Origin: Halovenus sp.
GTDB lineage: Archaea > Halobacteriota > Halobacteria > Halobacteriales > Haloarculaceae
Assembly: GCA_003551265.1 (NCBI GenBank)
Contig: PUMG01000115.1
Location: 1-19,301 of the forward strand
Direction: 5' to 3'
DNA: 19,301 bases
A program made the translations under genes and the position numbers. The notes under the pieces are model-generated. The model did not search any database and had not been told where the DNA came from. It was given only the letters and a program-made list of their open reading frames with translations. Below, piece after piece: positions 4,016-18,518 of the stretch; within the stretch, counting starts at the first letter, position 1, and each line of letters opens with the position of its first letter.

Positions 4016-4091
4016 AGGGATTATCGTACCTGTACAGAGATTCCCGCTGCGACGTACAGCGAGAAATCGATGATGACGTACGATAATCTCT
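4016..4091 (-). repeat. 76-bp palindromic element, copy 1
   Basis: An imperfect palindrome with ends AGGGATTATCGTAC and GTACGATAATCTCT. Folding the two halves pairs most of 30+ positions around a short centre flanked by CGCTG and CAGCG. Reversed, it matches 18443-18518 at about 70 of 76 positions and 17289-17364 more loosely. It sits in the 229-nt divergent space, 55 nt from the amidohydrolase start and about 100 nt from the TrmB start. Unknown function; it resembles a REP- or MITE-like mobile palindrome. Confidence 0.85.
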
Positions 4092-4148
4092 ATACCGACC
4101 GCGAACAATCCGCTGGATTCCCCTTCGTAAGTATTGTAGTACAGACAG

Positions 4149-4157
4149 AAATAAGTA
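4149..4157 (+). promoter_or_regulatory. Probable TATA region of the TrmB-type gene
   Basis: AAATAAGTA lies 34-42 nt before the ATG at 4191, implying a leader of roughly 10 nt. GAGGGTG, a partial Shine-Dalgarno-like sequence, sits 6-12 nt before the ATG. Just upstream is GTATTGTAGTAC (about 4131-4142), whose ends GTA and TAC are inverted, a possible regulator site. Confidence 0.4.
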
Positions 4158-4190
4158 CGGTGAGACCGACCACTCACGCGAGGGTGCGAC

Positions 4191-4958
4191 ATGACAGACG
4201 ACAATAAGGCAGTGACCGGGTTGAAGCAACTGGGACTGTCGACGTACGAGGCGCGGGTGTTCGTCGCGCTTCATAAACTCGGGACGGGGACCGCAAGCGA
4301 GATTAGTTCCGTCGTGGAGGTGCCCCGCTCGCAGGTCTACGGCGCTGCTGAGGGTCTCGAAGAGCTCGGGCTGGTCGAGACACAGCAGTCGACGCCGACG
4401 ACGTACCGGCCGGTGCCGCTCCAACAGGCACGTGAGCAGTTGCTCGACCAGCTTGCACGGACTGGCGAGGAGGCGTTCGACTATCTCGAACGGGTAAAGA
4501 ACACCCACGAGGCGCGCGAGAAGAGCGAATCCATCTGGCTCATCAGTGCGCGTGATGCCATCGTCTCCCGAACTGTCGACGTTGCCGCGATGGCCGAGCA
4601 TCGGCTCCTCTATGGGGTTACGAGTGTGGAGTACCTCGAAGACGATATCGTTAGGGCGCTCGAAGAGGCAAGCGAGCGAGGGGTGACTGTTGTCGTGGCG
4701 AGTGCGGAGCCCACGGTTCTCGAGGCGGTCCCCGACAGTAGCCCTCTCATCACGTACCGTGTTCCCGCCGAGCGAGACATGGACGTCGACACTGGACGGG
4801 TGCTCCTCGCTGACGAACACACCGTTCTGTTGAGTACACATTCGGAGGTAACCAGTCAGGGCCACGGCGAGGAGGTTGCGTTCTGGACGAGTGAGAATCC
4901 GTTCGCTTCCGTCCTCGTCGAACTCGTTTCAGGCTGGCTTCGGGAACCGTTTCCGTGA
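4191..4958 (+). CDS. TrmB-family transcriptional regulator
   Basis: A 255-residue DNA-binding regulator. The N-terminal winged helix (about 8-75) has the TrmB signature: GLKQLGLSTYEARVFVAL, then GTASEISSVVEVPRSQVYGAAEGLEELGLVE. A helical linker (77-112) probably dimerises. The C-terminal domain (from about 114, SIWLISARDAIV) has the alternating strand-helix pattern of the phospholipase-D-like TrmB effector domain, which in known members binds sugars or related ligands; no catalytic HKD motif is seen. It is divergent from the amidohydrolase homologue, so that gene and its own promoter are natural targets, an inference from layout. A 7-bp inverted repeat, GGGACGT (4961-4967) and ACGTCCC (4985-4991), follows the stop. 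Confidence 0.88.
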   Translation: MTDDNKAVTGLKQLGLSTYEARVFVALHKLGTGTASEISSVVEVPRSQVYGAAEGLEELGLVETQQSTPTTYRPVPLQQAREQLLDQLARTGEEAFDYLERVKNTHEAREKSESIWLISARDAIVSRTVDVAAMAEHRLLYGVTSVEYLEDDIVRALEEASERGVTVVVASAEPTVLEAVPDSSPLITYRVPAERDMDVDTGRVLLADEHTVLLSTHSEVTSQGHGEEVAFWTSENPFASVLVELVSGWLREPFP

Positions 4959-5007
4959 TAGGGACGTGTCCGTCAGTCTCAAGAACGTCCCGTCCACACA
5001 GCCACGC

Positions 5008-5709
5008 ATGGGTACGACGCTCGAATCCACCGACGAGCAGATGAGAGAGTTGCTGGAACGACTTCACGAGGAGTATCCCGACACGACGATTTCGCTTCGG
5101 TTTTCGAACCGACTGGAGCTGTTGATTGCGGTCGTTCTCTCTGCACAGTGTACCGACGAACGCGTGAACACTGTGACAGCCGGCCTGTTCGAGAAGTACG
5201 AGACTGCCGAGGACTACGCGAGCGCCAGTCAGGACGAACTCGCCGAGGATATCAGCTCGATAACGTACTACAACAGCAAGGCGGGCTACATCCGAGACGC
5301 CTGCAGCCAGATTATCGACGAACACGACGGTGAGGTCCCGGATTCGATGTCGGCGCTCACTGACCTTCCGGGAGTTGGGCGCAAAACCGCGAACGTCGTC
5401 CTCCAGCACGGCCACGATGTCGTCGAGGGTATCGTTGTCGACACCCACGTACAGCGGCTGACCCGCCGACTCGGTATCACCGACCAGCACAGGCCCGAAG
5501 CTATCGAACAGGAGTTGATGACAGTCGTTCCGGAAGGCGAGTGGGTGCAGTTCACCCACCTGCTCATCAGTCACGGCCGGGCGGTGTGCTCGGCCCGGAA
5601 CCCGACGTGTTCGGCGTGTGTTCTCGAAGATATTTGTCCCTCCTCGAAACTCGACAGTCAGGTCGACCTCGACTCCGGCGAGTCGTGGGACTCAGGTTCA
5701 GGCGCATAG
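5008..5709 (+). CDS. nth: Endonuclease III (DNA glycosylase/AP lyase)
   Basis: This enzyme removes oxidised pyrimidines and cuts abasic sites in base excision repair. The ATG at 5008 gives 233 residues; an upstream in-frame extension inside the TrmB gene is not family-like. The helix-hairpin-helix LPGVGRKTANVVL (120-132) carries the catalytic Lys126, and GIVVDTHVQRL holds the catalytic Asp145. The C-terminal four-cysteine iron-sulfur cluster has Cys194, Cys201, Cys204 and Cys210 in the classic C-x6-C-x2-C-x5-C spacing. A short Ser/Asp-rich tail (211-233) follows. The gene starts 49 nt after the TrmB-type gene and converges on a Nudix gene with 29 nt between. All key residues are present, so activity is expected. 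Confidence 0.95.
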   Translation: MGTTLESTDEQMRELLERLHEEYPDTTISLRFSNRLELLIAVVLSAQCTDERVNTVTAGLFEKYETAEDYASASQDELAEDISSITYYNSKAGYIRDACSQIIDEHDGEVPDSMSALTDLPGVGRKTANVVLQHGHDVVEGIVVDTHVQRLTRRLGITDQHRPEAIEQELMTVVPEGEWVQFTHLLISHGRAVCSARNPTCSACVLEDICPSSKLDSQVDLDSGESWDSGSGA

Positions 5710-5738
5710 TCCGTTTCGAGGGACGGATACTGAGTGTA

Positions 5739-6167
5739 TCACTCTTCGTCGAACTTCTCGTCGAGGAACTCGTGTGCGTCTTCGAGAATCTCTCGTGGGC
5801 CATCCTGAGTGATGGTGTTGATGGCCTGTTCGTAGTCGCGCCACTGGTGGTCGCGGTGTTCGTGTGACAGTTCAGCCGACGCCTCGAACGAGCGAGCGAT
5901 GAACAGATGCACGGTCTTGTGAATCGTCTGTCCGCTCGCCTCGAAGACGTAGTCGTACTCCTCACGGAAGCCATCAATCAGCCGGAAATCCGAGATTCCA
6001 GCTTCCTCTTTCACCTCGCGTATCGCCGTTTGCTGAAGTTCCTCGTCACCTTCGACGCCGCCTTTGGGAAACTCCCAGTCTCCCGGACGACTCTTCAGGA
6101 GGAGGTACTCCCGACGGCCACGCGTATCGCGAAAGAGGATGGCTCCCGCGCTCGTGGCCTCCTTCAT
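5739..6167 (-). CDS. Nudix hydrolase, Ap4A-hydrolase-like
   Basis: A 142-residue Nudix enzyme that hydrolyses a nucleoside diphosphate linked to another group. The Nudix box runs from Gly36 to Ile58 and fits GX5EX7REUXEEXGU exactly (REVKEEAGI at 50-58). The preceding GDWEFPKGG and the N-terminus TSAGAILF resemble bis(5'-nucleosyl)-tetraphosphatase (asymmetrical) proteins, which break down the alarmone Ap4A. The substrate is inferred from resemblance only. It is convergent with endonuclease III and divergent from the uS10-like gene. Its single 142-residue domain is typical of the family. Confidence 0.85.
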   Translation of the reverse strand: MKEATSAGAILFRDTRGRREYLLLKSRPGDWEFPKGGVEGDEELQQTAIREVKEEAGISDFRLIDGFREEYDYVFEASGQTIHKTVHLFIARSFEASAELSHEHRDHQWRDYEQAINTITQDGPREILEDAHEFLDEKFDEE

Positions 6168-6288
6168 TGTATCCCTGTATTATGCCCTGCCTAATGAGAA
6201 TATCGAACGACGCGCCCGAAGCACATCTAGAACAGATAACACGAACTGAAACGAATGGGTTTTGTCGGTACCCGTGCTGTCCTCGGAT

Positions 6289-6609
6289 ATGCCGTTCGTC
6301 ACCCGCCTCACGCTCACGAGTGGAGATGGAGACCTGCTCGAATCAGTCGTCTCCGACATCAAACAGCGTGCCGAGCGCAAGGGTGCCGAACTCAGAGGCC
6401 CCCATCCGAAGCCGCCGAGGAAAATCGCGGTTCCCCTGTACAAGGGATTTCGTGAGGACGGCGAGTTCGACACATGGGAGTACACGGTCTACGTTCGCGT
6501 CATCGAGATTATCGACTACAGCGAGTTCGCGCGCGAGGTCGCCGGACGGAGATACCCCGACAGTATCCACATCGCCGCCGACGTCGAGCAGTTCACTCGA
6601 ACGAGATAG
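6289..6609 (+). CDS. uS10/mL48-family ribosomal protein paralogue
   Basis: A 106-residue protein with the fold signature of ribosomal protein uS10: an N-terminal strand FVTRLTLTSGD, a helix with VVSDIKQRAERKGAELRGP, the central loop GPHPKPPRKIAVPLYKG (37-53), a strand WEYTVYVRVIEI, and a C-terminal strand DSIHIAADVEQF. Canonical haloarchaeal uS10 is encoded next to elongation factor 1-alpha; this gene has no ribosomal neighbours, so it is likely a paralogue whose place in the ribosome is uncertain. The ATG at 6289 was preferred over a frame start at 6262 because the family begins at this point. A T5 tract at 6614-6618 after the stop may help end transcription. The next gene begins 35 nt downstream. 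Confidence 0.7.
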   Translation: MPFVTRLTLTSGDGDLLESVVSDIKQRAERKGAELRGPHPKPPRKIAVPLYKGFREDGEFDTWEYTVYVRVIEIIDYSEFAREVAGRRYPDSIHIAADVEQFTRTR

Positions 6610-6644
6610 CCGAGTTTTTGTCACTGAGCGCCCTCGCCTCCGGT

Positions 6645-7949
6645 ATGGCCGTATCCGCTCAGACTGACTGGCTCGTTTCGCTCCGCCGGGAGCTACACCG
6701 CAGACCCGAACCCGCATGGTGTGAGTTCTACACCACTGCACGCATCGTCGACGAACTCCGAACGCTCGGGGTCGACGAACTACACATCGGACCCGAGATA
6801 CTCGCCGACGGAGAGCGACAGGGGGTTCCCGATGAGGCGACGCTTGATGCGTGGCTGGCACAGGCACGCGAAACCGAAGTTGACGAAGACGTCCTCGACC
6901 AGCTTGCCGGCGGCTACACCGGTACAATGGCAACGCTCGAACGGGGTGACGGACCGACGGTCGCGCTTCGGGTCGACATTGACGGACTGCCACAGCAAGA
7001 GACCGACGGACACGGTCACCAGCCCACAGAAGAGGGCTTCCGGTCAGTTCACGAGGGATACATGCACGCCTGCGGACACGACGCACACACGACTATCGGA
7101 CTGGGTGTGCTTCGCGAGCTGGCTGACCGGGAGTTCGACGGGACGCTGAAACTCATCTTCCAGCCCGCAGAGGAGGTCGTCGGCGGGGGCAGACCGATTG
7201 CCGAGAGTGGTCACCTCGACGACGTGGACGCACTCCTTGCGGTTCATATCGGGCTTGGCCATCCGACGGGTGAGATCGTCGCTGGCATGGGCGGCTTCTA
7301 CGCAGTGTCACACTTCGACGCGGCGTTCACCGGCACACCGGCCCACGCTGGTGCGGAACCCGAAGCGGGTGCGAACGCGGTGCAGGCGATGGCGACAGCG
7401 GTGACGAATCTCTACGGAATCGCGCGTCACAGCGACGGTGCGACCCGCATCAACGCTGGCGAGGTGGCTGGCGGGACGGCGTCGAACATCATTCCCGAAG
7501 ACGCCTACATCCAGGGGGAGGTCCGCGGTGAGACGACGGACCTGATGACCTACACCCGGGACAGAGCCGAGAACATCCTGCGTTCGGCCGCCGAGATGCA
7601 CGACTGTACAGTGGAGGTAACCCGCGGGAGCGAAGCGCCCAGCGCTGAGAGCGACGAGGCGGTCGCCTCCGTGGTGGCCGAAAACGCCGAGGGCCACGAC
7701 CACGTCCACACAGTGACTCCCCATGGCGAACTCGGTGCGAGCGAGGATGCGACGTACCTGATGCGTCGGGTACAGGAACGCGGTGGTGTTGCATCGTTCG
7801 TGGGAGTCGGAACGGACCATCCTGGTGGTCACCACACCGCGACCTTCGACGTCGACGAACGTTCGCTCAGAATAGGTGTCGACGTGCTCGCTGACACTAT
7901 CGAGGACCTGTTCGGCGGAGAACACGAAGAGTCAGCGCGTCAGAGCTGA
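6645..7949 (+). CDS. M20-family amidohydrolase, AbgA-like
   Basis: A 434-residue zinc-dependent amidohydrolase of the M20 peptidase family. Metal-site segments are visible: MHACGHDAHT (140-149, with Cys143 and His145), FQPAEE (172-177) with the general-base Glu, a His at 201 (AVHIGLGHP), and TDHPGGHH (390-397) near the C-terminus. The segment LRVDIDGLP, the insertion before GYMHACGHD and the spacing resemble AbgA, a subunit of p-aminobenzoyl-glutamate hydrolase; indole-acetyl-amino-acid and N-acyl-amino-acid hydrolases are close alternatives. The dimerisation domain is about 220-330. The ATG at 6645 starts a family-like N-terminus (SLRRELHRRPEPAW). A link to folate salvage is suggested by the dihydropteroate synthase homologue 2.7 kb downstream, but they are not in one operon. 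Confidence 0.85.
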   Translation: MAVSAQTDWLVSLRRELHRRPEPAWCEFYTTARIVDELRTLGVDELHIGPEILADGERQGVPDEATLDAWLAQARETEVDEDVLDQLAGGYTGTMATLERGDGPTVALRVDIDGLPQQETDGHGHQPTEEGFRSVHEGYMHACGHDAHTTIGLGVLRELADREFDGTLKLIFQPAEEVVGGGRPIAESGHLDDVDALLAVHIGLGHPTGEIVAGMGGFYAVSHFDAAFTGTPAHAGAEPEAGANAVQAMATAVTNLYGIARHSDGATRINAGEVAGGTASNIIPEDAYIQGEVRGETTDLMTYTRDRAENILRSAAEMHDCTVEVTRGSEAPSAESDEAVASVVAENAEGHDHVHTVTPHGELGASEDATYLMRRVQERGGVASFVGVGTDHPGGHHTATFDVDERSLRIGVDVLADTIEDLFGGEHEESARQS

Positions 7950-8000
7950 CAGAGTGAACAAACCTCAACAGTTTAGTGGGGGTCAATCGTAGCATCGGAT

Positions 8001-8342
8001 ATGACAGAGTACACCGTCGAATTTGTGGGGACCGGCGAGCGGATTACCGTCTCGGACACCGAGACAGTGTTGAGTCGCTGTATCGAGGAGGGTATTGCAC
8101 AGGAGTTCTCCTGTCGGGTCGGGATGTGTCTGGCGTGTTCGGCAAAAATCATTGAGGGAGAGGTGACACAGCCAGCAGCGCGAGGGCTGACCGAAGATGA
8201 GCGAGATGAGTACGCGCTGACGTGTATGGCCCGACCCAAATCGGACCTCGTCCTCGACAGAGGAAAGTACCCACCGAGTATCGACGAGGAGTCCCCGGCG
8301 ACCGAAGAAAGTGGCAGTGAAGCCGCCGCTGCTGACGACTGA
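8001..8342 (+). CDS. [2Fe-2S] ferredoxin, plant type
   Basis: A 113-residue soluble electron carrier. The cluster ligands are Cys38, Cys43 and Cys46 in the C-x4-C-x2-C pattern, plus Cys75 in LTCMARP. The beta-grasp start TEYTVEFVGTGERITV and the segment ALTCMARPKSDLVL fit the family. It lacks the N-terminal insertion of the classical halobacterial ferredoxin and instead carries an acidic Glu/Ala-rich tail (about 93-113). A weak TATA-like AGTTTAGT lies near 7968-7975, about 26-33 nt before the ATG. It stands alone, 51 nt after the M20 gene. The redox partner is unknown. Confidence 0.92.
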   Translation: MTEYTVEFVGTGERITVSDTETVLSRCIEEGIAQEFSCRVGMCLACSAKIIEGEVTQPAARGLTEDERDEYALTCMARPKSDLVLDRGKYPPSIDEESPATEESGSEAAAADD

Positions 8343-8419
8343 TACCGACGGATACTCACGAATACCACCCCTGTGGGGATTGGTACTTGCCCGGTTCGTC
8401 TTGACTCGTAGCGAAGGGC

Positions 8420-8428
8420 AGGCCATTT
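8420..8428 (+). promoter_or_regulatory. Probable TATA box before the DUF7110-type gene
   Basis: CCATTTATG is the best AT-rich element in the 165-nt spacer 8343-8507. Transcription would start near 8450, giving a leader of about 55 nt before the ATG at 8508. An in-frame ATG at 8426-8433 overlaps the box and would lie upstream of the transcript, so it was not used as the start. Confidence 0.4.
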
Positions 8429-8507
8429 ATGGGTGGGGCGTCTACAGGGAGGTACAGAGCTGTTCCCAGTCCCGGCCAACCAACCTGGACAACACTCCAC
8501 CACAACC

Positions 8508-9095
8508 ATGACCAGCCGCGTATACAGACTGCACTCAACACTCGAACTGCCACTGGAAGAGCTTCACGAGTATCTTGAAGACCCCGACCTGCCCGAGCGA
8601 GTCGCGGATATCGAGCTCACCCGACGAAACAACACGCTCATTATCAGCGCCGTCCCGGCAGACGACAGCATCAGCAAGTACACACCCACGGCACAGCTGA
8701 AAGCGAGTGTTACGGAGAACCGGGTGTACGAGGAGGAGCCGGAGACGCCGCCAGGGAAACCCCCACGGTCGAGTGGTGGACCGCAGTGGGGAGCGTTCGA
8801 AGAGGAAGAAGAGATCGAGTCAGAACTTGTCGAGTACGCCTGTTTCAAAGGCGACCGCGAGACCGTCCTACAGAACACGGCGCTCCAGTATCAGATGTTC
8901 GAGGTGTTGCGTGAGATTGCGTTGCGTGCGGAGAAAGGAACACTGACCGCTGTGGCAACCGAGAGCGACGACATCGAGGCGATTCGAATCGTCGACGGGA
9001 AGCAGGTTCCGGCCTCCATCACCGTGACTGAAGACCCGAACGAGGACGAGGATGAGAACGGTGTCGACTGGCGGAGCAACGAGTTCATCAGCTAG
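8508..9095 (+). CDS. Conserved haloarchaeal protein, DUF7110 type
   Basis: A 195-residue soluble protein of unknown function. The first 75 residues form a compact strand/helix domain (SRVYRLHSTLELPLEELHEYL, then RRNNTLIISAVPADDSISKYTPTAQLKA in two pieces). A proline-rich, acidic linker follows (about 83-112, EEEPETPPGKPPRSSGG). A helical C-terminal half, FKGDRETVLQNTALQYQMFEVL (about 128-149), precedes a short beta region. The sequence resembles a family I recall only from haloarchaea (DUF7110); the number is from memory. No catalytic motif or membrane segment is visible. It is convergent with the CoA-type Nudix gene, 33 nt apart. Confidence 0.7.
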   Translation: MTSRVYRLHSTLELPLEELHEYLEDPDLPERVADIELTRRNNTLIISAVPADDSISKYTPTAQLKASVTENRVYEEEPETPPGKPPRSSGGPQWGAFEEEEEIESELVEYACFKGDRETVLQNTALQYQMFEVLREIALRAEKGTLTAVATESDDIEAIRIVDGKQVPASITVTEDPNEDEDENGVDWRSNEFIS

Positions 9096-9128
9096 AGTTG
9101 TCGTTGCAGCAGGTTCTTGGAGGGTGCA

Positions 9129-9722
9129 TCAAACCGGATACTCAGCGTCCGCTTCAACGACCTTCTGGACGTCGGGTGCAGTCCACTCGGTCGTCAGTTC
9201 GAGTAACTGGACGAGCATCCGGGCAGTCGCTCCCCAGACGGTGTAACCGTCGACGTAGAAGTAGTGAAGACGGATACGGCCGTGGTAGGGATGCTCACGG
9301 TATTCGCCGTGGTAGTTGTCGAGGTCGATGAGTTCGGGGACCGAAAGAACTGCGATTTCGGCGACCTCGTCCTCACACGGTACGTACTCGTGGTCGGGTG
9401 CGAGTGCAACGAACGGCCGGACGGAGAATCCAGTCACAGTCCGAATATCGTCCAGACGGCCAACGAGTGAAATCTCCTCGCGCGGGAGGCAGACTTCTTC
9501 GTGTGCCTCTCGAATTGCAGTCTCCCAGAGATCCTCGTCGTGGGGTTCGCGCCGACCGCCGGGAAAGCTCATCTGTCCCGGATGGTTCGAGAGGTCCTCC
9601 GCACGTTTGGTCAACAGCAGATGCGGAACGTCGCGCTCGATGACCGGCACCACGACCGCCGACTCGCGGCGCTGGTCGCTCACCACTTCTGGTTCGTGTG
9701 CCTGTACCCCGTGGAGATTCAT
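9129..9722 (-). CDS. Nudix hydrolase, coenzyme A pyrophosphatase type
   Basis: A 197-residue Nudix enzyme likely to cleave coenzyme A or its derivatives to phosphopantetheine and 3',5'-ADP. The subgroup signature LLTKRAEDLSNHPGQMSFPGG (36-56) precedes the Nudix box, REAHEEVCL at 71-79; the usual final Gly is Cys78, a variation the CoA-type group tolerates (E. coli NudL has Ala). The ATG at 9722 was chosen from a much longer open frame because it lies 15-20 residues before the domain. It is the last gene of a leftward group with the DUF7109-type gene (25 nt upstream) and the zinc-finger gene, and converges with the DUF7110-type gene. Confidence 0.88.
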   Translation of the reverse strand: MNLHGVQAHEPEVVSDQRRESAVVVPVIERDVPHLLLTKRAEDLSNHPGQMSFPGGRREPHDEDLWETAIREAHEEVCLPREEISLVGRLDDIRTVTGFSVRPFVALAPDHEYVPCEDEVAEIAVLSVPELIDLDNYHGEYREHPYHGRIRLHYFYVDGYTVWGATARMLVQLLELTTEWTAPDVQKVVEADAEYPV

Positions 9723-9747
9723 ACCTGTTCGAACGAGGCGAGCACTC

Positions 9748-10269
9748 TTAACTGGTCGGAGTGGCAGTGACCAGCTCTTCACGAAGTGCTGACAGGTCGG
9801 TGTCCCCCCACGTCTCGAACTCGTAACTCGCATCGAGCATCGTCTCGATCTGTGTCTCCTCACCACGCTCGATTGCGTCTCGTGCCTCCCTGCGGAACCG
9901 GTCGACAGCCCGTGTCCGGGCGTCTTCGGTGTCAACCTCGCGCACGTCGATATCGAGAATGTGCGGCAGGTCAGCGCCATCGGGAGGTACCTCCGGGAAC
10001 GCGAGTGGACCGGCGAGCAACAGTGGCTCGTCTGCTTCGCCCAGCGACTCGTTTCGTTCGTCCGAGGAGACTGACTGCTCACTATCGAGATCCACAGCGA
10101 CCAGATGATAGGAGCGACGTGCCTCCTTGATACCGTCCTCGTACTGTTCCGGGTCGTACGCCTCTCCCTGTCTGTACGCAAGTTCTGCGAGCGCCTGTGA
10201 AAGCTCTGTCCGCTGCAGGGCACCGAAGAGGTCGACCACACCTGCCATCTCGTCACCTGTGACCGTCAT
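9748..10269 (-). CDS. Conserved haloarchaeal protein, DUF7109 type
   Basis: A 173-residue acidic protein. It begins with MAGVVDLFGALQRTELSQAL (8-27), a helical segment resembling a small helix-turn-helix-like start, followed by AYRQGEAYD. The middle holds PLLLAGPLAFPEVPPDGADL, a short strand region with conserved-looking prolines, and the C-terminus is helical (ARTRAVDRFRREARDAIERG). I recall a haloarchaeal family with this layout (DUF7109) without known function. It is the middle gene of a leftward group: 24 nt after the zinc-finger gene and 25 nt before the CoA-type Nudix gene, so co-transcription is likely. Confidence 0.7.
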   Translation of the reverse strand: MTVTGDEMAGVVDLFGALQRTELSQALAELAYRQGEAYDPEQYEDGIKEARRSYHLVAVDLDSEQSVSSDERNESLGEADEPLLLAGPLAFPEVPPDGADLPHILDIDVREVDTEDARTRAVDRFRREARDAIERGEETQIETMLDASYEFETWGDTDLSALREELVTATPTS

Positions 10270-10293
10270 CTTTCTGAGAGCACTACCGTCGTG

Positions 10294-10464
10294 TCATCCA
10301 ATCTCTTTCCACTCACCGCCACAGTCGGGACAGACGCGTACCCGTCCAATCTTGTCCGGGTCGTTTTTCGTGTCGAGATTCTCGTCGCACTCGACACAGA
10401 GCAATCGTTCGTAGGTGTCCTTTTTCAGATGGCCTGCTCGCAGTCCCTTGCGTGTCGATTCCAT
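10294..10464 (-). CDS. Small zinc-finger protein, HVO_0758 type
   Basis: A 56-residue basic protein with two CxxC knuckles, CVEC (23-26) and CPDC (45-48, within CPDCGGEW), which together can bind one zinc ion. The N-terminus MESTRKGLRAGHLKKDTYERL matches a family of haloarchaeal mini-proteins named after HVO_0758. The ATG at 10464 was chosen over a longer frame from 10515, because a TATA box (10484-10492) lies between the two and 20-28 nt from this ATG, predicting a leaderless transcript. Such proteins are often regulators or adaptors; the function here is unknown. It is the first gene of the leftward group. Confidence 0.85.
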   Translation of the reverse strand: MESTRKGLRAGHLKKDTYERLLCVECDENLDTKNDPDKIGRVRVCPDCGGEWKEIG

Positions 10465-11507: not shown

Positions 11508-11514
11508 GCGAACG

Positions 11515-12624
11515 ATGGATTACGCACAGGAGTACGTCGCCACGTTGCACGACCTGACAGACCCGACACCGGAGGCACCGCTTGCCGAGAGCGCGGTTGT
11601 CGTCCCGATAGCGGGCACGAACCCGGCTGATGTTCGGGCAGAGCACGTCTTCGAGACGCTCGCATCGGTTCGTCCAGCGAGGGTCGTTGTTCCCCTCCGT
11701 GCACCGGAACAGACGGTGTACGCGTTCGAACAGTGGGTCGAGCGCTTCGACCTGCCGGTGACTGTCCTGTGGTGTAACGCCGAGAGCGTGGATGCAACGC
11801 TTGCGAGACACGGGCTCGCTGGCGAGAGCGGCAAAGGCCGTGACGTCTGGCTCGGGCTGGGTGTTGCCGCCTCGCAGGCGAAGTACGTCGCAGTACACGA
11901 CGCCGACGCGACCACGTACAGCGAGTCTCACGTTCCCCGCCTGCTCGCACCACTCCAGGGTGAATACGAGTTCGTCAAGGGATATTACGCGCGCGTCGAA
12001 GACCAACAGCTCTACGGCCGACTCACCCGACTGTTCGTTGTACCCCTGCTACAGGCACTTTCCGACCAGCACGACACCGAGATCTTGCGCTACCTTTCGG
12101 CGTTCAGGTACCCCCTCGCGGGGGAGTTCGCGCTCACTTCCGAGGCGGCAACCCACATCCGGGCACAGCGCACGTGGGGTCTGGAACTCGGCGTGCTTGG
12201 CGACGCTCACGCCATTGCTGGCCGGAAACACTCCGCACAGGTCGACCTCGGTGTTCACAGACACGACCACCGGCCGGTCGAGGGTCGTGCCGGGCTGTCG
12301 ACGATGGCTGACGAAGTGGGCAACGCTCTGTTTCGAGTTCTCACAGACAACGGACTCGACCTCGACTACGAGGCGCTCCAGAACACCTACCACGACGCCG
12401 CAATGCGCCTCGTCGACCAGTACGCAGCCGACGCCTCGTTCAACGGACTCTCCTACGACCCGGAGGCAGAGCGCGAACAGGTTTCTGTGTACGCGTCGAG
12501 CATCGAGCCACCCGGTGTCGATACCCGTTTGCCGCCGTGGAATCAGGTCGACCTCTCGCCCGCGACGGTTCTGGGTGCCTCTCACGAGGCGACCGCGGGA
12601 ACGACTCAGGTATCGACTGACTGA
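11515..12624 (+). CDS. GpgS-like glycosyltransferase (GT-A fold)
   Basis: A 369-residue protein. Residues 25-61 form a nucleotide-binding start (SAVVVPIAGT, ARVVVPLRAP). GESGKGRDVWLGLG (103-116) and VHDADATTY (127-135, Asp129 and Asp131 as the DxD metal motif) are typical of glucosyl-3-phosphoglycerate synthase and related GT81/GT2 enzymes. FVKGYYARVE (153-162) and YPLAGEFALT (199-208) complete the active-site pattern. GpgS-type enzymes transfer glucose to 3-phosphoglycerate on the way to glucosylglycerate, a compatible solute; substrate identity here is inferred. The ATG at 11515 lies 7 nt after the previous stop. The last six codons and the stop form the first unit of a 26-bp tandem repeat. 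Confidence 0.75.
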   Translation: MDYAQEYVATLHDLTDPTPEAPLAESAVVVPIAGTNPADVRAEHVFETLASVRPARVVVPLRAPEQTVYAFEQWVERFDLPVTVLWCNAESVDATLARHGLAGESGKGRDVWLGLGVAASQAKYVAVHDADATTYSESHVPRLLAPLQGEYEFVKGYYARVEDQQLYGRLTRLFVVPLLQALSDQHDTEILRYLSAFRYPLAGEFALTSEAATHIRAQRTWGLELGVLGDAHAIAGRKHSAQVDLGVHRHDHRPVEGRAGLSTMADEVGNALFRVLTDNGLDLDYEALQNTYHDAAMRLVDQYAADASFNGLSYDPEAEREQVSVYASSIEPPGVDTRLPPWNQVDLSPATVLGASHEATAGTTQVSTD

Positions 12625-12703
12625 GAGTGACTCAGGTATCGACTGACTGAGAGTGACTCAGGTATCGACTGACTGAGAGCGACTCAGGTATCGACTGATT
12701 GAC
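12603..12703. repeat. 26-bp tandem repeat, about 3.8 copies, over a stop codon
   Basis: Units at 12603-12628, 12629-12654 and 12655-12680 are identical except for the last base of the third; a fourth, diverging unit runs from 12681. Unit 1 contains the C-terminal codons and TGA (12622-12624) of the glycosyltransferase gene. Each unit contains CTCAG and CTGAG in inverted order and so can form a small hairpin. The period is not a multiple of three, so the copies do not extend the protein. Confidence 0.9.
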
Positions 12704-12742
12704 CTTCTGGAGTGGACCTGCTGTCGATTTTCGTCCATCAGT

Positions 12743-12765
12743 GTGAGTAAGCAGTATATACTCAC
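12743..12765 (+). promoter_or_regulatory. Inverted repeat overlapping the TATA box of the DUF5518-type gene
   Basis: GTGAGTA (12743-12749) and TACTCAC (12759-12765) are a perfect 7-bp inverted repeat with a 9-bp spacer. The TATA sequence AGTATATA (12753-12760) lies inside, about 30 nt before the ATG at 12790. A protein bound here would compete with TATA-binding protein, so this is a candidate operator for repression. Confidence 0.5.
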
Positions 12766-12789
12766 AGCACGAGAAGCGAGACGAGACGT

Positions 12790-13161
12790 ATGACACAGTG
12801 GCGTGCAGTGATAGCCGGGTTTGTCGTCACGTTCGTGCTCGGAGTGGTCGGTCTGGTCGTACCGGGTGTCGGACAGTTGCTCGCAGCGCTGGTAGGCGGG
12901 TTCGTCGCTGGCTACCTCGCTGGCGGCGGTCTGCTCAGCGGCTTCTGGCACGGACTGCTCGCTGGCAGCCTCTCGGGGATTGTCCTCGGCATCATCCTCC
13001 TTCTGGGCATCTCTCTCGCTGGTCTCACGCTGGGTCCGGTTGGTGGTGCAGTCGGTGGCGTCGTGGGTCTGGGCACGTTCGTCGTGGTCGTAATTCTCGC
13101 CATGATTGCAGCCGTCGACAGCGCAATTGGGGGCGCCATCGGTGGTCTGTTGAACGGGTGA
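12790..13161 (+). CDS. Small membrane protein, DUF5518 type
   Basis: A 123-residue integral membrane protein. Four hydrophobic stretches are visible: about 7-27 (IAGFVVTFVLGVVGLVVPG), 28-45, 56-80 (GLLAGSLSGIVLGIILLLGI) and 86-112. Gly and Ala dominate, with GxxxG-like spacing that favours helix packing. The final GGAIGGLLNG may pack at the membrane edge. This is the layout of the haloarchaeal DUF5518 proteins (family number from memory), whose role is unknown. The gene is single, with a promoter containing a palindrome around the TATA box; 61 nt separate it from the next gene. Confidence 0.75.
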   Translation: MTQWRAVIAGFVVTFVLGVVGLVVPGVGQLLAALVGGFVAGYLAGGGLLSGFWHGLLAGSLSGIVLGIILLLGISLAGLTLGPVGGAVGGVVGLGTFVVVVILAMIAAVDSAIGGAIGGLLNG

Positions 13162-13222
13162 CATCTATTCGCGTATCGGCGTTACGTTCATTGTATCGCA
13201 CCTCCTAGAGACTGACAACGGA

Positions 13223-13672
13223 ATGAGGCGCGACCACTTCACAGTCACTGTTCGACAGCCAGACTCGTTCGACGACACCGAGAGCCCTCGGCTCGAAATC
13301 GAGTACACCGGTCCCACAGAGACACTCACCGCACAGCTGGGAGATGACCACGGGAACCTGTATCCCTCGAATATGCTCGACGCGGGCTTTCGCGTTCAGC
13401 AATCCGACGACGAGCACGAACAGGGAGTGTTCAGCCTCACTCATCGGATGACAGGGGAGTACCTGCTCGAGGTGAACGTGGAGGCAGACACGATACGTGA
13501 CGTCGTTCGTCGTGCACGCAACGCAGACGATGGGAACGGAAGCTACTTCATTCACATCCAGCGCCGTGACGACGACCCTGTTCGCTACGAGATGGACGCG
13601 CTCTTGTTCTACGACAGCGACGGGCAACTCGTCCGTCAACAGAGCCTCATACCCAGCGGGGTCGAACTCTAG
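13223..13672 (+). CDS. Conserved haloarchaeal protein, DUF5793 type
   Basis: A 149-residue soluble, beta-rich protein of unknown function. It starts MRRDHFTVTVRQPD, continues with LEIEYTGPTETLTAQL (25-40), VFSLTHRMTGEYLLEVNVEAD (about 69-89), and ends with FYDSDGQLVRQQSLIPSGVEL, an unusually well-conserved C-terminus in the family I recall as DUF5793. No catalytic motif or membrane segment is visible. Its TAG stop (13670-13672) lies within a CTAG tetramer that also supplies the stop of E1-beta on the other strand, so the two genes overlap tail-to-tail by 4 bp. Confidence 0.8.
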   Translation: MRRDHFTVTVRQPDSFDDTESPRLEIEYTGPTETLTAQLGDDHGNLYPSNMLDAGFRVQQSDDEHEQGVFSLTHRMTGEYLLEVNVEADTIRDVVRRARNADDGNGSYFIHIQRRDDDPVRYEMDALLFYDSDGQLVRQQSLIPSGVEL

Positions 13673-14748
13673 AACTCGACGGCGTCTCGAACTCCTTCTT
13701 TGATTCTGAGCGCCTGTGGCAGGTAGAAGTCCTCCAGCGCGTGCAGCGGCATGTGGGCGTCGTAGCCAGCGATACGCTGGATGGGTGCCTCCTGATACAG
13801 CAGCGCTTCCTCCTGGATGGTCGCTGCAATCTCTGCCCCCACACCCGCCGTCTTCGGCGCTTCGTGGACGACTGCACCACGACCCGTCTTCTCGAAGGAG
13901 TCGACGATGGTGTCGATGGGAAGCGGTGAGAGGCTACGGAGGTCGACAACCTCGCAGTCGATGCCCTCCTCAGCAAGTTCCTCAGCTGCAACGAGCGTCG
14001 GTCGGGTCATCGAGCCCCACGTGAACACCGAGATGTCCGTCCCTTCTCGGCGGATTGCGGCCTCGTCGAGCGGAAGTTCGTACGAAGACTCCGGTACCTC
14101 CTCACGGAACGCGCGGTAGATGAGCTTCGGTTCGAGGAAGATGACAGGGTCGGGGTCACGAATTGCGGCCGTGAGTAGCCCTTTCGCGTCGTACGGCGTC
14201 GAGGGCGTGACAACTTTCAGACCAGGTTCGTGAACGAAAAACGCCTCCTTCGATTCGGAGTGATGCTCGGGCGCGCGGATGCCGCCGCCGTAGGGCATAC
14301 GTACGACGAGTGGTGCGTTCGACTGGCCGTGTGTCCGACTGCGCAGTCGAGAGGCGTGGCTGACGAGCTGGTCGAAGGCGGGATAGACGAAGCCCATGAA
14401 CTGTATCTCGGCGACTGGACGCATTCCCGAGAGCGCGAGACCGATAGATGCGCCCACAATTCCCGCTTCGGCGAGCGGTGTATCGACGACCCGATGGTCG
14501 CCGAACTCGTCGTAGAGTGCGTCCGTGGCGCGGAACACGCCGCCGTTGCGACCGACATCCTCACCGAGCACCATGATGCGTTCATCCTGGCTCATCTCGG
14601 TGTAGAGCGCGTCTGCAACCGCCTCGACGAGCGTGAGTTCCGAGAGGGTCTCGGCAGAGTGGTCGTGCAGTTCCTGCTGATTCACGCTCACTGTTTCGTC
14701 ACCAGCAGCTTCGACGTTCTCACGAACGGTGTCGGCGTACGAACTCAT
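13669..14748 (-). CDS. 2-oxoacid dehydrogenase E1 component, beta subunit
   Basis: The 359-residue beta subunit of the thiamine-diphosphate-dependent E1 enzyme, which decarboxylates pyruvate or a branched-chain 2-oxoacid. The catalytic-site segment MVLGEDVGRNGGVFRAT (59-75, Glu63), TPLAEAGIVGASIGLAL (90-106), EIQFMGFVYPAFDQL (114-128) and RAPEHHSES (158-166) are all typical. Residues 1-36 (SSYADTVRENVEAAGDE and onward) precede the usual family start near LTLVEAV and form an acidic extension. The start ATG overlaps the stop of the alpha gene by 4 bp, so the two are translated as a unit. No E2 or E3 gene follows; the next gene faces it. Confidence 0.92.
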   Translation of the reverse strand: MSSYADTVRENVEAAGDETVSVNQQELHDHSAETLSELTLVEAVADALYTEMSQDERIMVLGEDVGRNGGVFRATDALYDEFGDHRVVDTPLAEAGIVGASIGLALSGMRPVAEIQFMGFVYPAFDQLVSHASRLRSRTHGQSNAPLVVRMPYGGGIRAPEHHSESKEAFFVHEPGLKVVTPSTPYDAKGLLTAAIRDPDPVIFLEPKLIYRAFREEVPESSYELPLDEAAIRREGTDISVFTWGSMTRPTLVAAEELAEEGIDCEVVDLRSLSPLPIDTIVDSFEKTGRGAVVHEAPKTAGVGAEIAATIQEEALLYQEAPIQRIAGYDAHMPLHALEDFYLPQALRIKEGVRDAVEF

Positions 14749-15875
14749 TCTAACACCTCCGAGAACGCGCTGTCACCGTACTTTTCACGCAACTCACGCA
14801 GCTCCTCACGCTGGTCTTCGAGTCGCCTCGGCAGTTCGTCGTAGACGTGCTCGAAGATGTCGTCGGGGTCGGCTTCCAGCGACTCCGCCTCCTCGACAGC
14901 GGTCTGGATGCGGTCGTCGACCCGTTTCTCGATGGTCGCCTGCCGCTCGTCTGTGAGGATTCCCTCGTTCGTGAGGTAACCACGAAGTCGGTCGACGGGG
15001 TCGCGCTCGCGGTAGTACTCGGCGGCGTCGTCTGGCCGGTAGACGGTTGGGTCGTCGGAGGTCGTGTGTGCGCCGAAACGATACTGGAGGGACTCGATCA
15101 GCGTCGGTCGACCTTCGCCAGGGCCCGGGTCTTTCGCCTTGCGCACTGCGCCACGGGTGGCCTGATACACCGCCAGCGGGTCGAGTCCGTCGACGCGGAC
15201 GCTCTCGATGCCGTAGGCGTCGGCTTTCTGTGCCAGCGTCTCGCTCTGTGTCTGGCGCTCCACCGGCGTCGAGATTGCCCACTGATTGTTGTTGCACACG
15301 AATACGGCTGGTACGTCGAAGACGCCAGCGAAGTTGAGTCCCTCGTGGAAGTCACCTTCCGAAGTCGCGCCGTCACCAAAGTGACACAGCACTGCCCGGT
15401 CCTGCTGGCCCTGAAGCTTGAAGCCCCAGGCCATCCCCATCGCCTGTGGAATCTGTGTCGCAATCGGGATGTACTCCGGCATGACGTTCACGCCATCGGG
15501 AATTGCATACCCCTCACGATACCCTCGAAGCGGCGCGAGCAGCGACGTGAGGCTCATCCCGTGAACGTGTTTGGCCGCGTGATCCCGGTAGGTCGGGAAC
15601 AGCCAGTCCTGCTCGTCGAGTGCGTAACTGGTCGCAACCTGTGAGCCTTCCTGTCCGGTCATGGGCGCGTAGGTTGCGAGTCGACCCTGGCGTTGAAGGC
15701 TGATTGCTCGTCTGTCGAATCGGCGTGCGAGCACTAACGCCTCGTACATCGCCAGTAGCTCGGCTTCGGAGAGGTCGGGAACTTCGGCGTCCGGCCGAAC
15801 GTTCCCATCGGGGTCCAGTATCTGTAAACGGTCGTTGCTGTCCTGTTCGTAGACGCTTGAGTGGGCGTTCATCAT
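14745..15875 (-). CDS. 2-oxoacid dehydrogenase E1 component, alpha subunit
   Basis: The 376-residue alpha subunit that binds thiamine diphosphate. The cofactor motif runs from GDGATSEGD (167-175) to CNNNQWAIS (194-202). Substrate-side segments TYAPMTGQEGSQVA (68-81), PTYRDHA (94-100) and FGAHTTSDDP (267-276) are present. HTTSDDP is close to branched-chain and acetoin-type enzymes, so pyruvate is not the only candidate substrate. The start could be 15875 or 15872 (ATGATG); a longer frame to 15926 adds an unrelated, Gln-rich start. It overlaps the beta gene by 4 bp. The 5' region is long and contains three hairpins. Confidence 0.92.
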   Translation of the reverse strand: MMNAHSSVYEQDSNDRLQILDPDGNVRPDAEVPDLSEAELLAMYEALVLARRFDRRAISLQRQGRLATYAPMTGQEGSQVATSYALDEQDWLFPTYRDHAAKHVHGMSLTSLLAPLRGYREGYAIPDGVNVMPEYIPIATQIPQAMGMAWGFKLQGQQDRAVLCHFGDGATSEGDFHEGLNFAGVFDVPAVFVCNNNQWAISTPVERQTQSETLAQKADAYGIESVRVDGLDPLAVYQATRGAVRKAKDPGPGEGRPTLIESLQYRFGAHTTSDDPTVYRPDDAAEYYRERDPVDRLRGYLTNEGILTDERQATIEKRVDDRIQTAVEEAESLEADPDDIFEHVYDELPRRLEDQREELRELREKYGDSAFSEVLE

Positions 15876-15933
15876 GGTCGTTGTCTCGTGTGTTTGCTGT
15901 TGTGGGTCCGTCCCGTGGGTTCGCACCTGCGTG

Positions 15934-16053
15934 CCCGCTGTGGAACCAGCGGGAGTTGTTCGATGTCAGTACGAATTTCGGCCGACCTGCTCCGGGTCCG
16001 TCGCCATCGTAACCCGGAACCAGTGTCGGTCGTGTCCCGACAGCGGTGTCGGG
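15934..16053 (-). promoter_or_regulatory. Candidate structured leader of the E1-alpha mRNA
   Basis: Three perfect 7-bp inverted repeats lie in order on the minus strand. They are CCCGACA/TGTCGGG (16036-16053, 4-nt loop), TCCGGGT/ACCCGGA (15991-16018, 14-nt loop) and CCCGCTG/CAGCGGG (15934-15953, 6-nt loop). If transcription starts from the AT-rich tract at 16080-16092, all three would be in a leader of about 180 nt before the ATG at 15875. No known riboswitch core was recognised, including the thiamine-diphosphate type. Function is inferred only from position and structure. Confidence 0.45.
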
Positions 16054-16079
16054 AAGTTATCGAAGATTAAATGTGATTG

Positions 16080-16092
16080 TTTTAAAAATAAG
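16080..16092 (-). promoter_or_regulatory. Candidate TATA region for E1-alpha
   Basis: On the minus strand CTTATTTTTAAAA is the strongest AT-rich element upstream of E1-alpha, followed by a second, ACATTTAAT, near 16066-16074. Transcription would begin around 16040-16060, at the first hairpin. It lies about 205 nt from the start codon, unusually far for this window. Confidence 0.4.
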
Positions 16093-16105
16093 TGCTACTG
16101 TGCGT

Positions 16106-16127
16106 CCGAACGCCGGCGACCGTTCGG
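16106..16127. promoter_or_regulatory. Perfect 7-bp inverted repeat upstream of the E1-alpha TATA region
   Basis: CCGAACG (16106-16112) and CGTTCGG (16121-16127) flank an 8-bp centre that itself contains GCCGGC. A further short pair, GGGG (16159-16162) and CCCC (16169-16172), follows. Lying 14 nt beyond the AT-rich tract on the upstream side for E1-alpha, it could be an activator or repressor site; no protein is known to me for it. The rest of the spacer, 16173-16346, holds a TATA-like GATAATAC (16204-16211) and a 12-codon open frame. Confidence 0.35.
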
Positions 16128-16346
16128 TTGGTGATAATTGACCTGCTGCACAGACGTCGGGGAGACTGCCCCAGTACATACTCGGATAAATGTTGGTGGG
16201 ATAGATAATACTTCTGCTACTTGTGCTAACATGACCCACACTGACACTCCCCTCAACGGCATTTGGTGACTTCCTTCGAGAGAAATAGGCGTCCGAAGCG
16301 TTCGCAGAGGAGTAACGCTATTACTGGGGCAGACCTGCGTTCGACC

Positions 16347-17216
16347 ATGAGCATTGATGTACTGGACGACCGGCAGGCGATAGACACCCACGCACACCAG
16401 CCAACCAGCGAGTTTCTTCACGATGCAGGCGGACAGATGATGAAAGATGCGGCCAGACGGTTTGGTTCGGAGATGGAGACCTGGAGCTACGAGGAGATGA
16501 TTGCGGAGTACCACGAGGTGGGCATCGGTCGTGCGGTCTTGCTCGGGTGGGACGCCGAGACGAACACCGGCAATCCACCGGTTCCGAACGACTACGTTGC
16601 CGAGGTGCGTGACAGCCACGACGACTTCTTCATCGGCTTCGGCTCGGTCGACCCGCTGAAAGACGACTGCGTCGAAGAGGCACGCAGATGTGTCGAGGAC
16701 CTCGACCTCTCGGGGTTCAAATTCCAGCAGATTGCCCAGGGCTTCGACCCGTCCGACGCCGAGTACGAACCGCTCTGGGAGACCATCGAGGAACTCGGGG
16801 TTCCCGTTGTCTTTCACGGCGGGAACTCGACGCTCGGTGCGTGTGCGCCGGGTGGACGCGGTCTCCACATCAAGTACGGGAACCCTATGCTGATTGACGA
16901 CGTTGCCGCACGTCACCCCGACCTCCAGATACTGATTGCTCATCCCGCGTACCCGTGGGAGAAAGAGCAACTCGCCATCTGTCAGCAAAAGGGGAACGTC
17001 TACATGGATCTCTCGGGGTGGATGCCCCGCTACATCGACGACCAGGTGCTTCACTATGCGAAGACGCTGCTGAAGGACAAGGTCATGTTCGGCACCGACT
17101 ACCCGATGCTCAGACCCGAACCGTGGCTCGAACAGTTCGATGAACTCGGATACTCCGAGGAGATACAGCGCAAAATTCTCTGGGAGAACGCCGAACAGTT
17201 CCTCGGACTGTCCTGA
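16347..17216 (+). CDS. Metal-dependent amidohydrolase family protein (COG2159)
   Basis: A 289-residue TIM-barrel hydrolase or decarboxylase. All expected metal ligands are present: His15 and His17 in IDTHAHQP, His157 in VVFHGGN, His199 in ILIAHPAYPW, and Asp251 in MFGTDYP. The ATG at 16347 begins a family-like N-terminus; the longer frame from 16263 adds a basic, unrelated stretch. Relatives include aminocarboxymuconate-semialdehyde decarboxylase-like and ketoacyl-CoA hydrolase-like enzymes, so the substrate is unknown. It is divergent from E1-alpha across a 471-nt region. A 19-bp tandem duplication covers its stop codon and a 76-bp palindromic element follows at 17289. The protein at 3152-3961 is a paralogue with altered ligands. 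Confidence 0.85.
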   Translation: MSIDVLDDRQAIDTHAHQPTSEFLHDAGGQMMKDAARRFGSEMETWSYEEMIAEYHEVGIGRAVLLGWDAETNTGNPPVPNDYVAEVRDSHDDFFIGFGSVDPLKDDCVEEARRCVEDLDLSGFKFQQIAQGFDPSDAEYEPLWETIEELGVPVVFHGGNSTLGACAPGGRGLHIKYGNPMLIDDVAARHPDLQILIAHPAYPWEKEQLAICQQKGNVYMDLSGWMPRYIDDQVLHYAKTLLKDKVMFGTDYPMLRPEPWLEQFDELGYSEEIQRKILWENAEQFLGLS

Positions 17217-17244
17217 GACTGTCGAACTGTCCTGAGACTGTCGA
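17207..17244. repeat. Perfect 19-bp tandem duplication over a stop codon
   Basis: ACTGTCCTGAGACTGTCGA occurs at 17207-17225 and again, without a mismatch, at 17226-17244. The first copy contains the last codons and TGA (17214-17216) of the amidohydrolase gene. The lack of divergence suggests a recent duplication. Confidence 0.9.
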
Positions 17245-17288
17245 ACGAGCTACCTCCAGGAATGCGCGCACGTCCGTGTTGGAGGTAT

Positions 17289-17364
17289 CGCGATTCTCGT
17301 ACGTCATCAGAGAGTTCTCGCCGCAGGTCGTGAGGAGACTCTCTGAACAGGTCCGATAATCTCT
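17289..17364 (+). repeat. 76-bp palindromic element, copy 3 (diverged)
   Basis: Same length and orientation as 18443-18518, with about 55 of 76 positions shared by eye. The arms are well conserved (GATT, TCGTACGTCATCA, ACAGGT, CGATA) and most changes fall in the centre. The two halves still pair with each other. It begins 44 nt after the duplicated stop region of the amidohydrolase gene. Confidence 0.75.
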
Positions 17365-17665
17365 ACCGCTATCGCTCGCTGTTGTTGTGGTTGGTATCAA
17401 TAGCGATAATGCAGAGGATGCGTACACGCGTTTCCCTGAAGACAGAGTGTATACTGACACACCGAATTTCGTGAACTCGTGGTAGCCACACTGACGGATA
17501 TGTGAATACAGGAAGTACAGAAAACCGGTTGAGGAGTCGGAGATACAGTCCAGAAATATCGGATATTAGTCAGAGACCGGGGGCGAGAATCTACAGAATT
17601 TCTCTCCGTCAGTACCTCGTCGGATTCGTTGGGTCTGGCAATTCTCGCCACCTGAGTTTCGGTAG
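17365..17665. other. Gene-poor, AT-richer spacer with inverted repeats
   Basis: No convincing gene was found in this 300-nt stretch, and it looks less GC-rich than its surroundings. It holds a perfect 13-bp palindrome, AATATC-G-GATATT (17554-17566). It also has a perfect 9-bp inverted repeat, GGCGAGAAT (17582-17590) with ATTCTCGCC (17641-17649), enclosing 50 nt. Open frames here (for example 17397-17651 on the minus strand) have no recognisable domain. It could be a remnant, a small RNA gene or a regulatory region. Confidence 0.4.
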
Positions 17666-17673
17666 GTTTATGC
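17664..17673 (+). promoter_or_regulatory. Probable TATA box of the DUF7556-type gene
   Basis: AGGTTTATGC lies 24-33 nt before the ATG at 17697, fitting a leaderless transcript and favouring this ATG over the out-of-frame one at 17693. Confidence 0.5.
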
Positions 17674-17696
17674 CGCGGTGTCAGTAATTATCATGC

Positions 17697-17864
17697 ATGC
17701 AGCCGGATACAGTCGTCCCGGCCGAAGCGGCAACGAGTACGAACGTGATGGCGTCAGTCGAGGAGGGACCGGTAGACCAGTTTATCCTCGCAGACATTAG
17801 CACAGACGACGCGTACCTCACAGTTCGACTCGCAGACGCCGCCTCGCTCTCAGACTGGCGATAA
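17697..17864 (+). CDS. Short conserved haloarchaeal protein, DUF7556 type
   Basis: A 55-residue acidic protein: MQPDTVVPAEAATSTN, then VMASVEEGPVDQF, ILADISTDDAYLTV and a C-terminal ADAASLSDWR. The pattern VMASV, ADISxDDAYLTV and a final SDWR matches a small haloarchaeal family I recall as DUF7556, of unknown function. It is shorter than many gene finders accept. The frame is supported by a TATA box at the right distance, the acidic composition, and termination by TAA just 24 nt before the convergent msrA stop. Confidence 0.7.
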   Translation: MQPDTVVPAEAATSTNVMASVEEGPVDQFILADISTDDAYLTVRLADAASLSDWR

Positions 17865-17888
17865 TCCGGCTTTCGATCTCCCATCGAG

Positions 17889-18416
17889 TCACAGCTCTGT
17901 GAGCTTGCTCTGGAACTTCTCACGGACCTTCTCGACTTTCGGGGCGGCGTGCATCCGACAGTAGGCGTCGCTGGGATTTTTCTCGAAGTAATCCTGGTGG
18001 TACTGCTCGGCCTCGTAGAACGTCTCGAGGGGTTCGAGTTCGGTGACAACATCGTTCCGGTACTCCTCGTCGAGTGCTTCGATGTACGCACGCGCGGTGC
18101 GCTCTTGTTCGTCGTCGTGTGCGAGAATGATAGAGCGATACTGCGTTCCAACGTCTGGACCCTGCCTGTTCAACTGTGTCGGGTCGTGAATCGTGAAGAA
18201 TACCTCAAGCAACTCGTCGTAGCCGACGACGTCGGGGTCGTACACCACCTGTACAACTTCTGCGTGGCCTGTCGTCCCCGCGCAGACCTCTTTGTATGTG
18301 GGTTCTTCGGTGTGACCACCAGCGTAGCCGGAGGTCACCGCCTCGACGCCGTCGAGTTCTTTGAACGCCGCCTCGATACACCAGAAACAGCCTCCACCGA
18401 GCGTTGCCGTTGCCAT
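17889..18416 (-). CDS. msrA: Peptide methionine sulfoxide reductase A
   Basis: This enzyme reduces the S-form of methionine sulfoxide in proteins and free methionine, repairing oxidative damage. The 175-residue protein starts ATATLGGGCFWCIEAAF, with the catalytic GCFWC motif (Cys10 attacks the sulfoxide). VTSGYAGG, YKEVCAGTTGHAEVVQV, FFTIHDPTQLNRQGPDVGTQYRS (split across about 73-95) and YHQDYFEKNP follow as expected. The ATG at 18416 starts right at the family N-terminus; a longer frame to 18464 runs into the 76-bp repeat. A TATA-like CTATAC on the minus strand (about 18437-18443) abuts that repeat, 21-27 nt from the ATG. Confidence 0.95.
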   Translation of the reverse strand: MATATLGGGCFWCIEAAFKELDGVEAVTSGYAGGHTEEPTYKEVCAGTTGHAEVVQVVYDPDVVGYDELLEVFFTIHDPTQLNRQGPDVGTQYRSIILAHDDEQERTARAYIEALDEEYRNDVVTELEPLETFYEAEQYHQDYFEKNPSDAYCRMHAAPKVEKVREKFQSKLTEL

Positions 18417-18442
18417 ACGTTCTCTTGGGCGTCGAGTCGTAT

Positions 18443-18518
18443 AGGGATTATCGTACGTCATCATCGATTTCTCGCTGTCCGCCCCAGCGAGAATCTCTGT
18501 ACAGGTACGATACTCCCT
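18443..18518 (+). repeat. 76-bp palindromic element, copy 2
   Basis: Ends AGGGATTATCGTAC and GGTACGATACTCCCT. It differs at only about 6 of 76 positions from the reverse complement of 4016-4091. It lies between the msrA start (27 nt away) and the end of the membrane-protein gene at 18570, in the upstream region of msrA, and its left end touches the msrA TATA-like sequence. Confidence 0.85.

Follow-up and report, generated by a model that had tools for sequence, protein, structure and literature searches.

A high-copy palindromic repeat family in Halovenus

What kind of element are the palindromes that lie between the genes of a 19,301-nt contig of the haloarchaeon Halovenus sp. (PUMG01000115.1, assembly GCA_003551265.1, positions 1 to 19,301; hereafter the window), and how did they come to be there? 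Our answer, which we hold to be likely, is that they belong to a non-autonomous family of miniature inverted-repeat transposable elements (MITEs) of the TA-targeting kind, probably moved by an IS630-type transposase, with a target duplication that is exact only for a second family described below. The original prediction, made from the sequence alone, had reported three palindromic repeats, and we recovered all three as palindromes at 4013-4094 (copy 1, reverse strand), 17286-17367 (copy 2, forward strand) and 18440-18521 (copy 3, forward strand). The unit length of exactly 76 bp given there had to be revised. An alignment of 102 of the 105 copies found in the host genome, three being omitted for odd length or a missing flank, places sharp limits at 82 bp (TATAGGG...CCCTATA). 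This unit is best read as a 78-bp element between flanking TA dinucleotides.

The element of about 78 bp has the ends TAGGGATT...AATCCCTA; the majority consensus of the best copies for the 82-bp unit is TATAGGGATTATCGTACGTCATCATAGATTTCTCGCTGTACGTCGCAGCGAGAATCTCTGTACAGGTACGATAATCCCTATA, with terminal inverted repeats TAGGGATTATCGTAC / GTACGATAATCCCTA. In copy 1 the element occupies 4015-4092 and has TA on both sides, at 4013-4014 and 4093-4094 (105.6 bits). Copy 2 is more diverged (element 17288-17365, 85.1 bits), with TA on the left at 17286-17287 and CC on the right, and copy 3 (element 18442-18519, 99.4 bits) has TA at 18440-18441 and TC on the right. The terminal inverted repeats of copy 3 lie on the forward strand at 18442-18456 (TAGGGATTATCGTAC) and 18505-18519 (GTACGATACTCCCTG), followed inward by the two strands of a conserved, mismatched internal loop at 18457-18463 (GTCATCA) and 18498-18504 (TGTACAG). 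In the earlier 76-bp frame, copies 1 and 3 agree at 70 of 76 positions, copies 1 and 2 at 58 and copies 2 and 3 at 55. The earlier figures of about 70 and 55 were thus found again, but had been attached to the wrong copies (2 and 3 swapped), 70 being copy 1 against copy 3.

The host genome (G000) is a 2.9 Mb draft, 88% complete. Searching it with blastn returned at least 55 matches (best 40 of 123 candidates scored), and a covariance model built from 31 copies returned at least 142 matches at E ≤ 0.001 (best 150 of 1903 candidates scored). Once matches on both strands are merged, at least 105 distinct places remain, a minimum for the genome as a whole. Searched with a profile, 587 kb of this genome gave the same 105 places and 10 further partial ones. 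The tip pattern, with up to three mismatches, matched 206 times compared with three times for a reversed control pattern; together with the copy number, this excludes chance. Segmental duplication was also ruled out, as homology stops sharply at 82 bp in the 102 aligned copies. The copies are of many ages: model scores range from 30 to 112 bits, with 40 copies at 90 bits or more, 25 at 70-90 and 40 below 70, and this wide spread suggests activity over a long time.

Outside the host genome the family is scarce. The covariance model, run under stricter filters on 58 relatives, gave matches in four genomes: two of the 17 genomes of the same genus (G011 with two places, G013 with three) and two other relatives (G020 and G033) with one weak match each. 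The tip pattern in 146 genomes of the family was found in G000 (38), G011 (1), G013 (1) and G143 (1, not palindromic), and blastn found no match in 72,556 plasmid and 50,697 phage records. More copies had been predicted and are present in number, but across the genomes searched they occur almost exclusively in this species and are not a general haloarchaeal feature. A wider haloarchaeal family was considered and rejected. An exact 20-position core pattern, searched in contigs of at least 3 kb with records of or near the own genome possibly excluded, yielded 20 stretches in genome contigs. No such palindrome occurs in the five of these 20 that were inspected (all three haloarchaeal ones included) or in both viral stretches. 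On 29 stretches, including the G143 match, the element profile scored at most 19 bits, a figure only roughly comparable to the 30-112 bits above as it comes from a different model.

The match in G020, which belongs to another genus, is a 110-bp palindrome (locus L064, E 3e-4) with similar arms and a different centre. Low-score copies in the host genome (e.g. C79:2073, C102:8180 and C181:11163) often carry the tips CTGAGAGGG...CCCTCTCAG. These older tips and the G020 palindrome hint at a wider, older group. Solo tips, that is, one terminal arm without a second arm nearby, were seen at 13 inspected places (L298:9585, L304:8570, L303:10139, L301:2876, L302:7438, L306:11759, L305:2298, L203:3368 and others); we read them as relics of arm deletion, which is unproven.

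Empty sites and nested insertions at TA

Relatives of the host hold several of the same gene junctions without the element. G001, G002 and G004 lack the element at the site orthologous to that of copy 3, with the flanking sequence at the reductase gene present on both sides; in G014 flank agreement is clear on the left only. The empty site reads GACTCG-TA-TGTATCTGACTGC in G001 and the filled site GAGTCG-TA-[element]-TC-TGTATCTGACTGC. G014, G004 and G002 have the gene junction that holds the copy on contig C364, but not the copy itself; the alignment has some gaps. The interval between the genes that flank copy 2, an amidohydrolase gene and a DUF7556 open reading frame (ORF), is shorter and lacks the element in G010, G002 and G001, and the element is missing from the convergent site of C56:17382 in G004, G014, G008, G002 and G001. 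Such sites are covered by 19 stretches fetched from relatives, and the element profile found no copy in any of them. At C104:2370 and C56:23283 the intergenic sequence of relatives is too diverged for a site comparison, and the comparisons for C379 and for copy 1, the latter made on the left flank only, were uninformative. The genes on either side of copy 1 (window 3964-4218) are separated from each other in G002 and G004. The check for empty sites thus came out in favour of mobility for copy 3 and at least one other copy.

The flanks of first-family copies revealed a second family of palindromes, about 83 bp long, TATACCGGTCGACGGAATCTGTGA...TCAATCGTTCCGTCGACCGGTATA. The 587 kb hold six uninterrupted copies as well as partial or interrupted ones, and members of this family (TATACCGGTCGACGGAA...TTCCGTCGACCGGTATA) were located on contigs C193, C71, C362, C212, C112 and C373 (loci L005, L219, L151, L315, L310 and L304). 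No match to it was found in plasmids, nor by a 22-nt pattern in viral contigs. The two families are nested in each other. The six uninterrupted copies read approximately GTGTGAGAAC-TA-TCAATC, with TA in five and TG in one, and at this same internal TA first-family elements sit in opposite orientations on contigs C318 and C207. The C318 junction, GTGTGAGAGC-TA-[TAGGG...CCCTA]-TA-GCAATC, has TA on both sides and one changed flank base; the C207 junction is GTGTGTAAAC-TA-[TATGG...CCCTA]-TC-TCAGTC. Conversely, on C193 the second family lies in the arm of a first-family element with an exact TA duplication, GGGAT-TA-[TACCGG...CCGGTA]-TA-TCGTACC. Mutual nesting at known TA positions provides internal empty sites, so that target choice becomes accessible without a second strain. 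Two further places, C230:7746 and C102:334 (loci L160 and L158), hold pieces of both families joined in rearranged form and are excluded from the nesting count; a motif near AGATTCTCG common to both families is a possible recombination point.

At the level of sequence, a single rule, TA duplicated around TANNGG...CCNNTA, explains C318, C207, C193 and copy 3 of the window. Of the 40 copies with the highest scores, 31 have TA as the outer pair on the left and 30 on the right, with both in 22. The features found are those of TA-ended MITEs: short, non-coding, multi-copy and intergenic sequences with terminal inverted repeats, TA termini and a TA target duplication. The element would insert at a TA dinucleotide and duplicate it, probably by cut-and-paste. 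As it is too short to encode a transposase, it would be moved in trans by an enzyme recognising the inverted tips, and the TA duplication points to an IS630 (Tc1/mariner-like) transposase as the putative mover. Together with the many further copies, their unrelated flanks and the empty sites, the nested insertions support the mobile palindrome proposed earlier; the duplication looked for at the target is supported as TA and is exact for the second family only.

Several observations weigh against this reading. Each first-family case (C318, C207 and copy 3) has a changed base in or beside the duplication, besides flank divergence, and blunt insertion, which would need different element ends in different cases, could in the strict sense still account for them. 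TA at the ends fades with age: it is present on the left in 17 and on the right in 11 of 25 mid-score copies, and on the left in 11 and on the right in five of 37 low-score copies, none of which has both. The low-score copies with tips CTGAGAGGG...CCCTCTCAG may represent an older subfamily whose ends are about 4 bp farther outward. No clear duplication emerged when 81 copies were tested at fixed offsets, a setting in which a TA duplication alone would hardly show, and the C357 junction lacks TA in relatives. Finally, tip searches revealed no autonomous partner, IS630 transposases themselves not having been searched for: among the 73 tips listed at one mismatch or fewer, 64 fall in the 105 copies and the other nine on nine contigs. 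A longer target duplication, a separate candidate, was rejected, as none was found by the fixed-offset test.

The same evidence bears on the nearest haloarchaeal objects, the small mobile repeats (SMRs) of Haloquadratum walsbyi. These families (SMR-A/B) are described as about 80-110 bp long with inverted ends, up to 54 copies per family and insertion into mobile elements (PMC3119063). An element of this type would have inverted ends unrelated to transposons, no target duplication and an unknown mechanism. Our element shares with SMRs the haloarchaeal host, size, copy number, inverted ends, the insertion into another repeat family and the lack of a partner transposon among our matches (PMC3119063). 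However, nested and empty sites show a TA pattern that points to a duplication of 2 bp, and SMRs are said to make none. We regard an SMR-type element as unlikely, and continue to favour the TA-targeting MITE.

Candidate transposases

The nine tips outside the 105 copies lie on nine different contigs, so that no element with two such tips was seen, and the matching transposase hoped for in the original prediction did not emerge. A partner may have been lost, may have diverged in its ends or may be missing from the assembly. Repeated ORFs (at least 55% identity, 587 kb) number nine, and the three scanned are a mutase, an HD-domain protein and an unassigned protein, none of them a transposase.

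The nearly end-to-end hairpin would suit a REP-like or PATE-like element (repetitive extragenic palindrome or palindrome-associated transposable element), whose single-stranded hairpin would be mobilised by a Y1 transposase of the IS200/IS605 or RAYT type, as would the covariation of several paired positions above shuffles and the placement closer to gene 3′ ends described below. REP units are shorter and depend on a Y1 transposase, and a TA duplication is not expected of Y1 enzymes. The Y1 domain PF01797 had no match in the host assembly, 88% complete, while the same search was positive in five of 14 control genomes, including Haloferax volcanii. With the TA duplication also speaking against a Y1 enzyme on general grounds, we consider this origin very unlikely. 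Of the two types first suggested, REP or MITE, the latter fits and the former fits badly.

Hairpin structure and genomic placement

Folded as RNA, both strands of copies 1 and 3 do far better than their dinucleotide shuffles (z -5.1 to -6.6; none of 200 as good), whereas copy 2 is only weakly better (z -2.3 and -1.1; 7 and 29 of 200 as good). The outer arms pair almost fully. Across 37 tested pairs we counted 128 double changes, where shuffling predicts 78 and slid controls give 59-70; pairs covarying beyond shuffling include 35-94 (T-A 78, G-C 8), 32-97 and 60-70. Part of this covariation is subfamily history, as shuffles leave shared ancestry in place. The asymmetric internal loop, with GTCATCA on one side and TGTACAG on the other, is conserved, and its mismatches recur in the 102 copies: G.G in 88, C.C in 95, A.A in 86 and T.T in 69. 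Differences between copies are often A-to-C or T-to-G (pair 38-91 is T-C in 30 of 101 copies). A known structured RNA was ruled out, with zero Rfam matches in the window at gathering score.

Gene positions are approximate, as genes were called with a simple codon-usage script, which overlooked at least TrmB (4191-4958). Nearly all copies are intergenic: in DNA of which 84% is predicted coding, four of the 105 extend more than 30 bp into a predicted gene, and ten further copies have no neighbouring gene on one side. Where it lies between tandem genes, the element has no preferred orientation (27 v 26), and at 39 of 53 sites it is closer to the end of the upstream gene. Some copies lie near gene starts and may alter expression there. 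Copy 3 (window 18414-18521) precedes a peptide methionine sulfoxide reductase gene, ending about 23 bp before the likely start codon, and may have altered the promoter of this gene.

Both the structure and the placement could be taken to mean that the hairpin is kept for a host function, such as a transcript end, an mRNA processing site or a small RNA, with spread being secondary. The excess of double changes, the conserved loop mismatches and the proximity to upstream gene ends are in line with this. Set against them are the even split of orientations, the lack of an Rfam match in the window and the absence of matches, under the stricter filters, from 15 of 17 genomes of the genus; moreover, many arm changes are one-sided, and covariation can stem from subfamily history or from arm-to-arm template switching. 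A primary host function is therefore very unlikely. It is quite unlikely, too, that the hairpin with its mismatched loop is itself the recognised object and that a common, unknown enzyme reading extruded hairpins moves both families. If true, such an enzyme would also explain the enigmatic SMRs. We retain the TA-targeting MITE as the preferred reading.

Relation to known small mobile repeats

Bacterial TA-ended MITEs are described by Delihas (2007) as small and mainly intergenic with inverted ends, TA termini, target duplications and stem-loop transcripts (PMC2229807). Among them, RUP is 107 bp long, occurs in 108 copies, inserts into insertion sequence (IS) elements and probably uses IS630-Spn1 (PMC2229807). 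RUP, NEMIS/Correia and ERIC resemble our element in being shorter than 200 bp and mainly intergenic with inverted ends, TA termini, a target duplication and a stable stem-loop. The comparison is by description and not by alignment; unlike them, our element is archaeal and palindromic nearly from end to end. The ends of RUP resemble those of IS630-Spn1, whereas no partner IS was found here, within the scope of the tip search given above.

Other haloarchaeal repeats differ in their ends. The MITEs of Haloquadratum have ends related to known transposons, and its IS605-related PATEs are, like our element, palindromic, transposase-free and present in high copy (PMC3119063). PATEs are described there as having near-terminal palindromes without terminal inverted repeats or a duplication, whereas our element has inverted tips and no Y1 transposase was detected by PF01797 in its host. 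REP/BIME sequences, which go with RAYT transposases, are likewise extragenic palindromes in high copy, often more than 100 per genome (PMC2817692). A 2024 review names few archaea as having MITEs (PMC10969869). We found no description of this family in the literature searched, with most subscription journals outside its scope and ISfinder not compared. The family appears to be a new one within a known kind of element, set apart from known elements by their descriptions. The haloarchaeal transposase-free repeats known so far include SMRs, whose movement is unexplained; to these our data add two TA-targeting MITE families, the first of them well defined and high in copy number.

Further features of the window

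A 26-bp tandem repeat in about four copies (GACTCAGGTATCGACTGACTGAGAGT) lies at 12603-12702. The closest genus-named relative of a protein encoded in the window is from Halovenus aranensis, with 82% identity.

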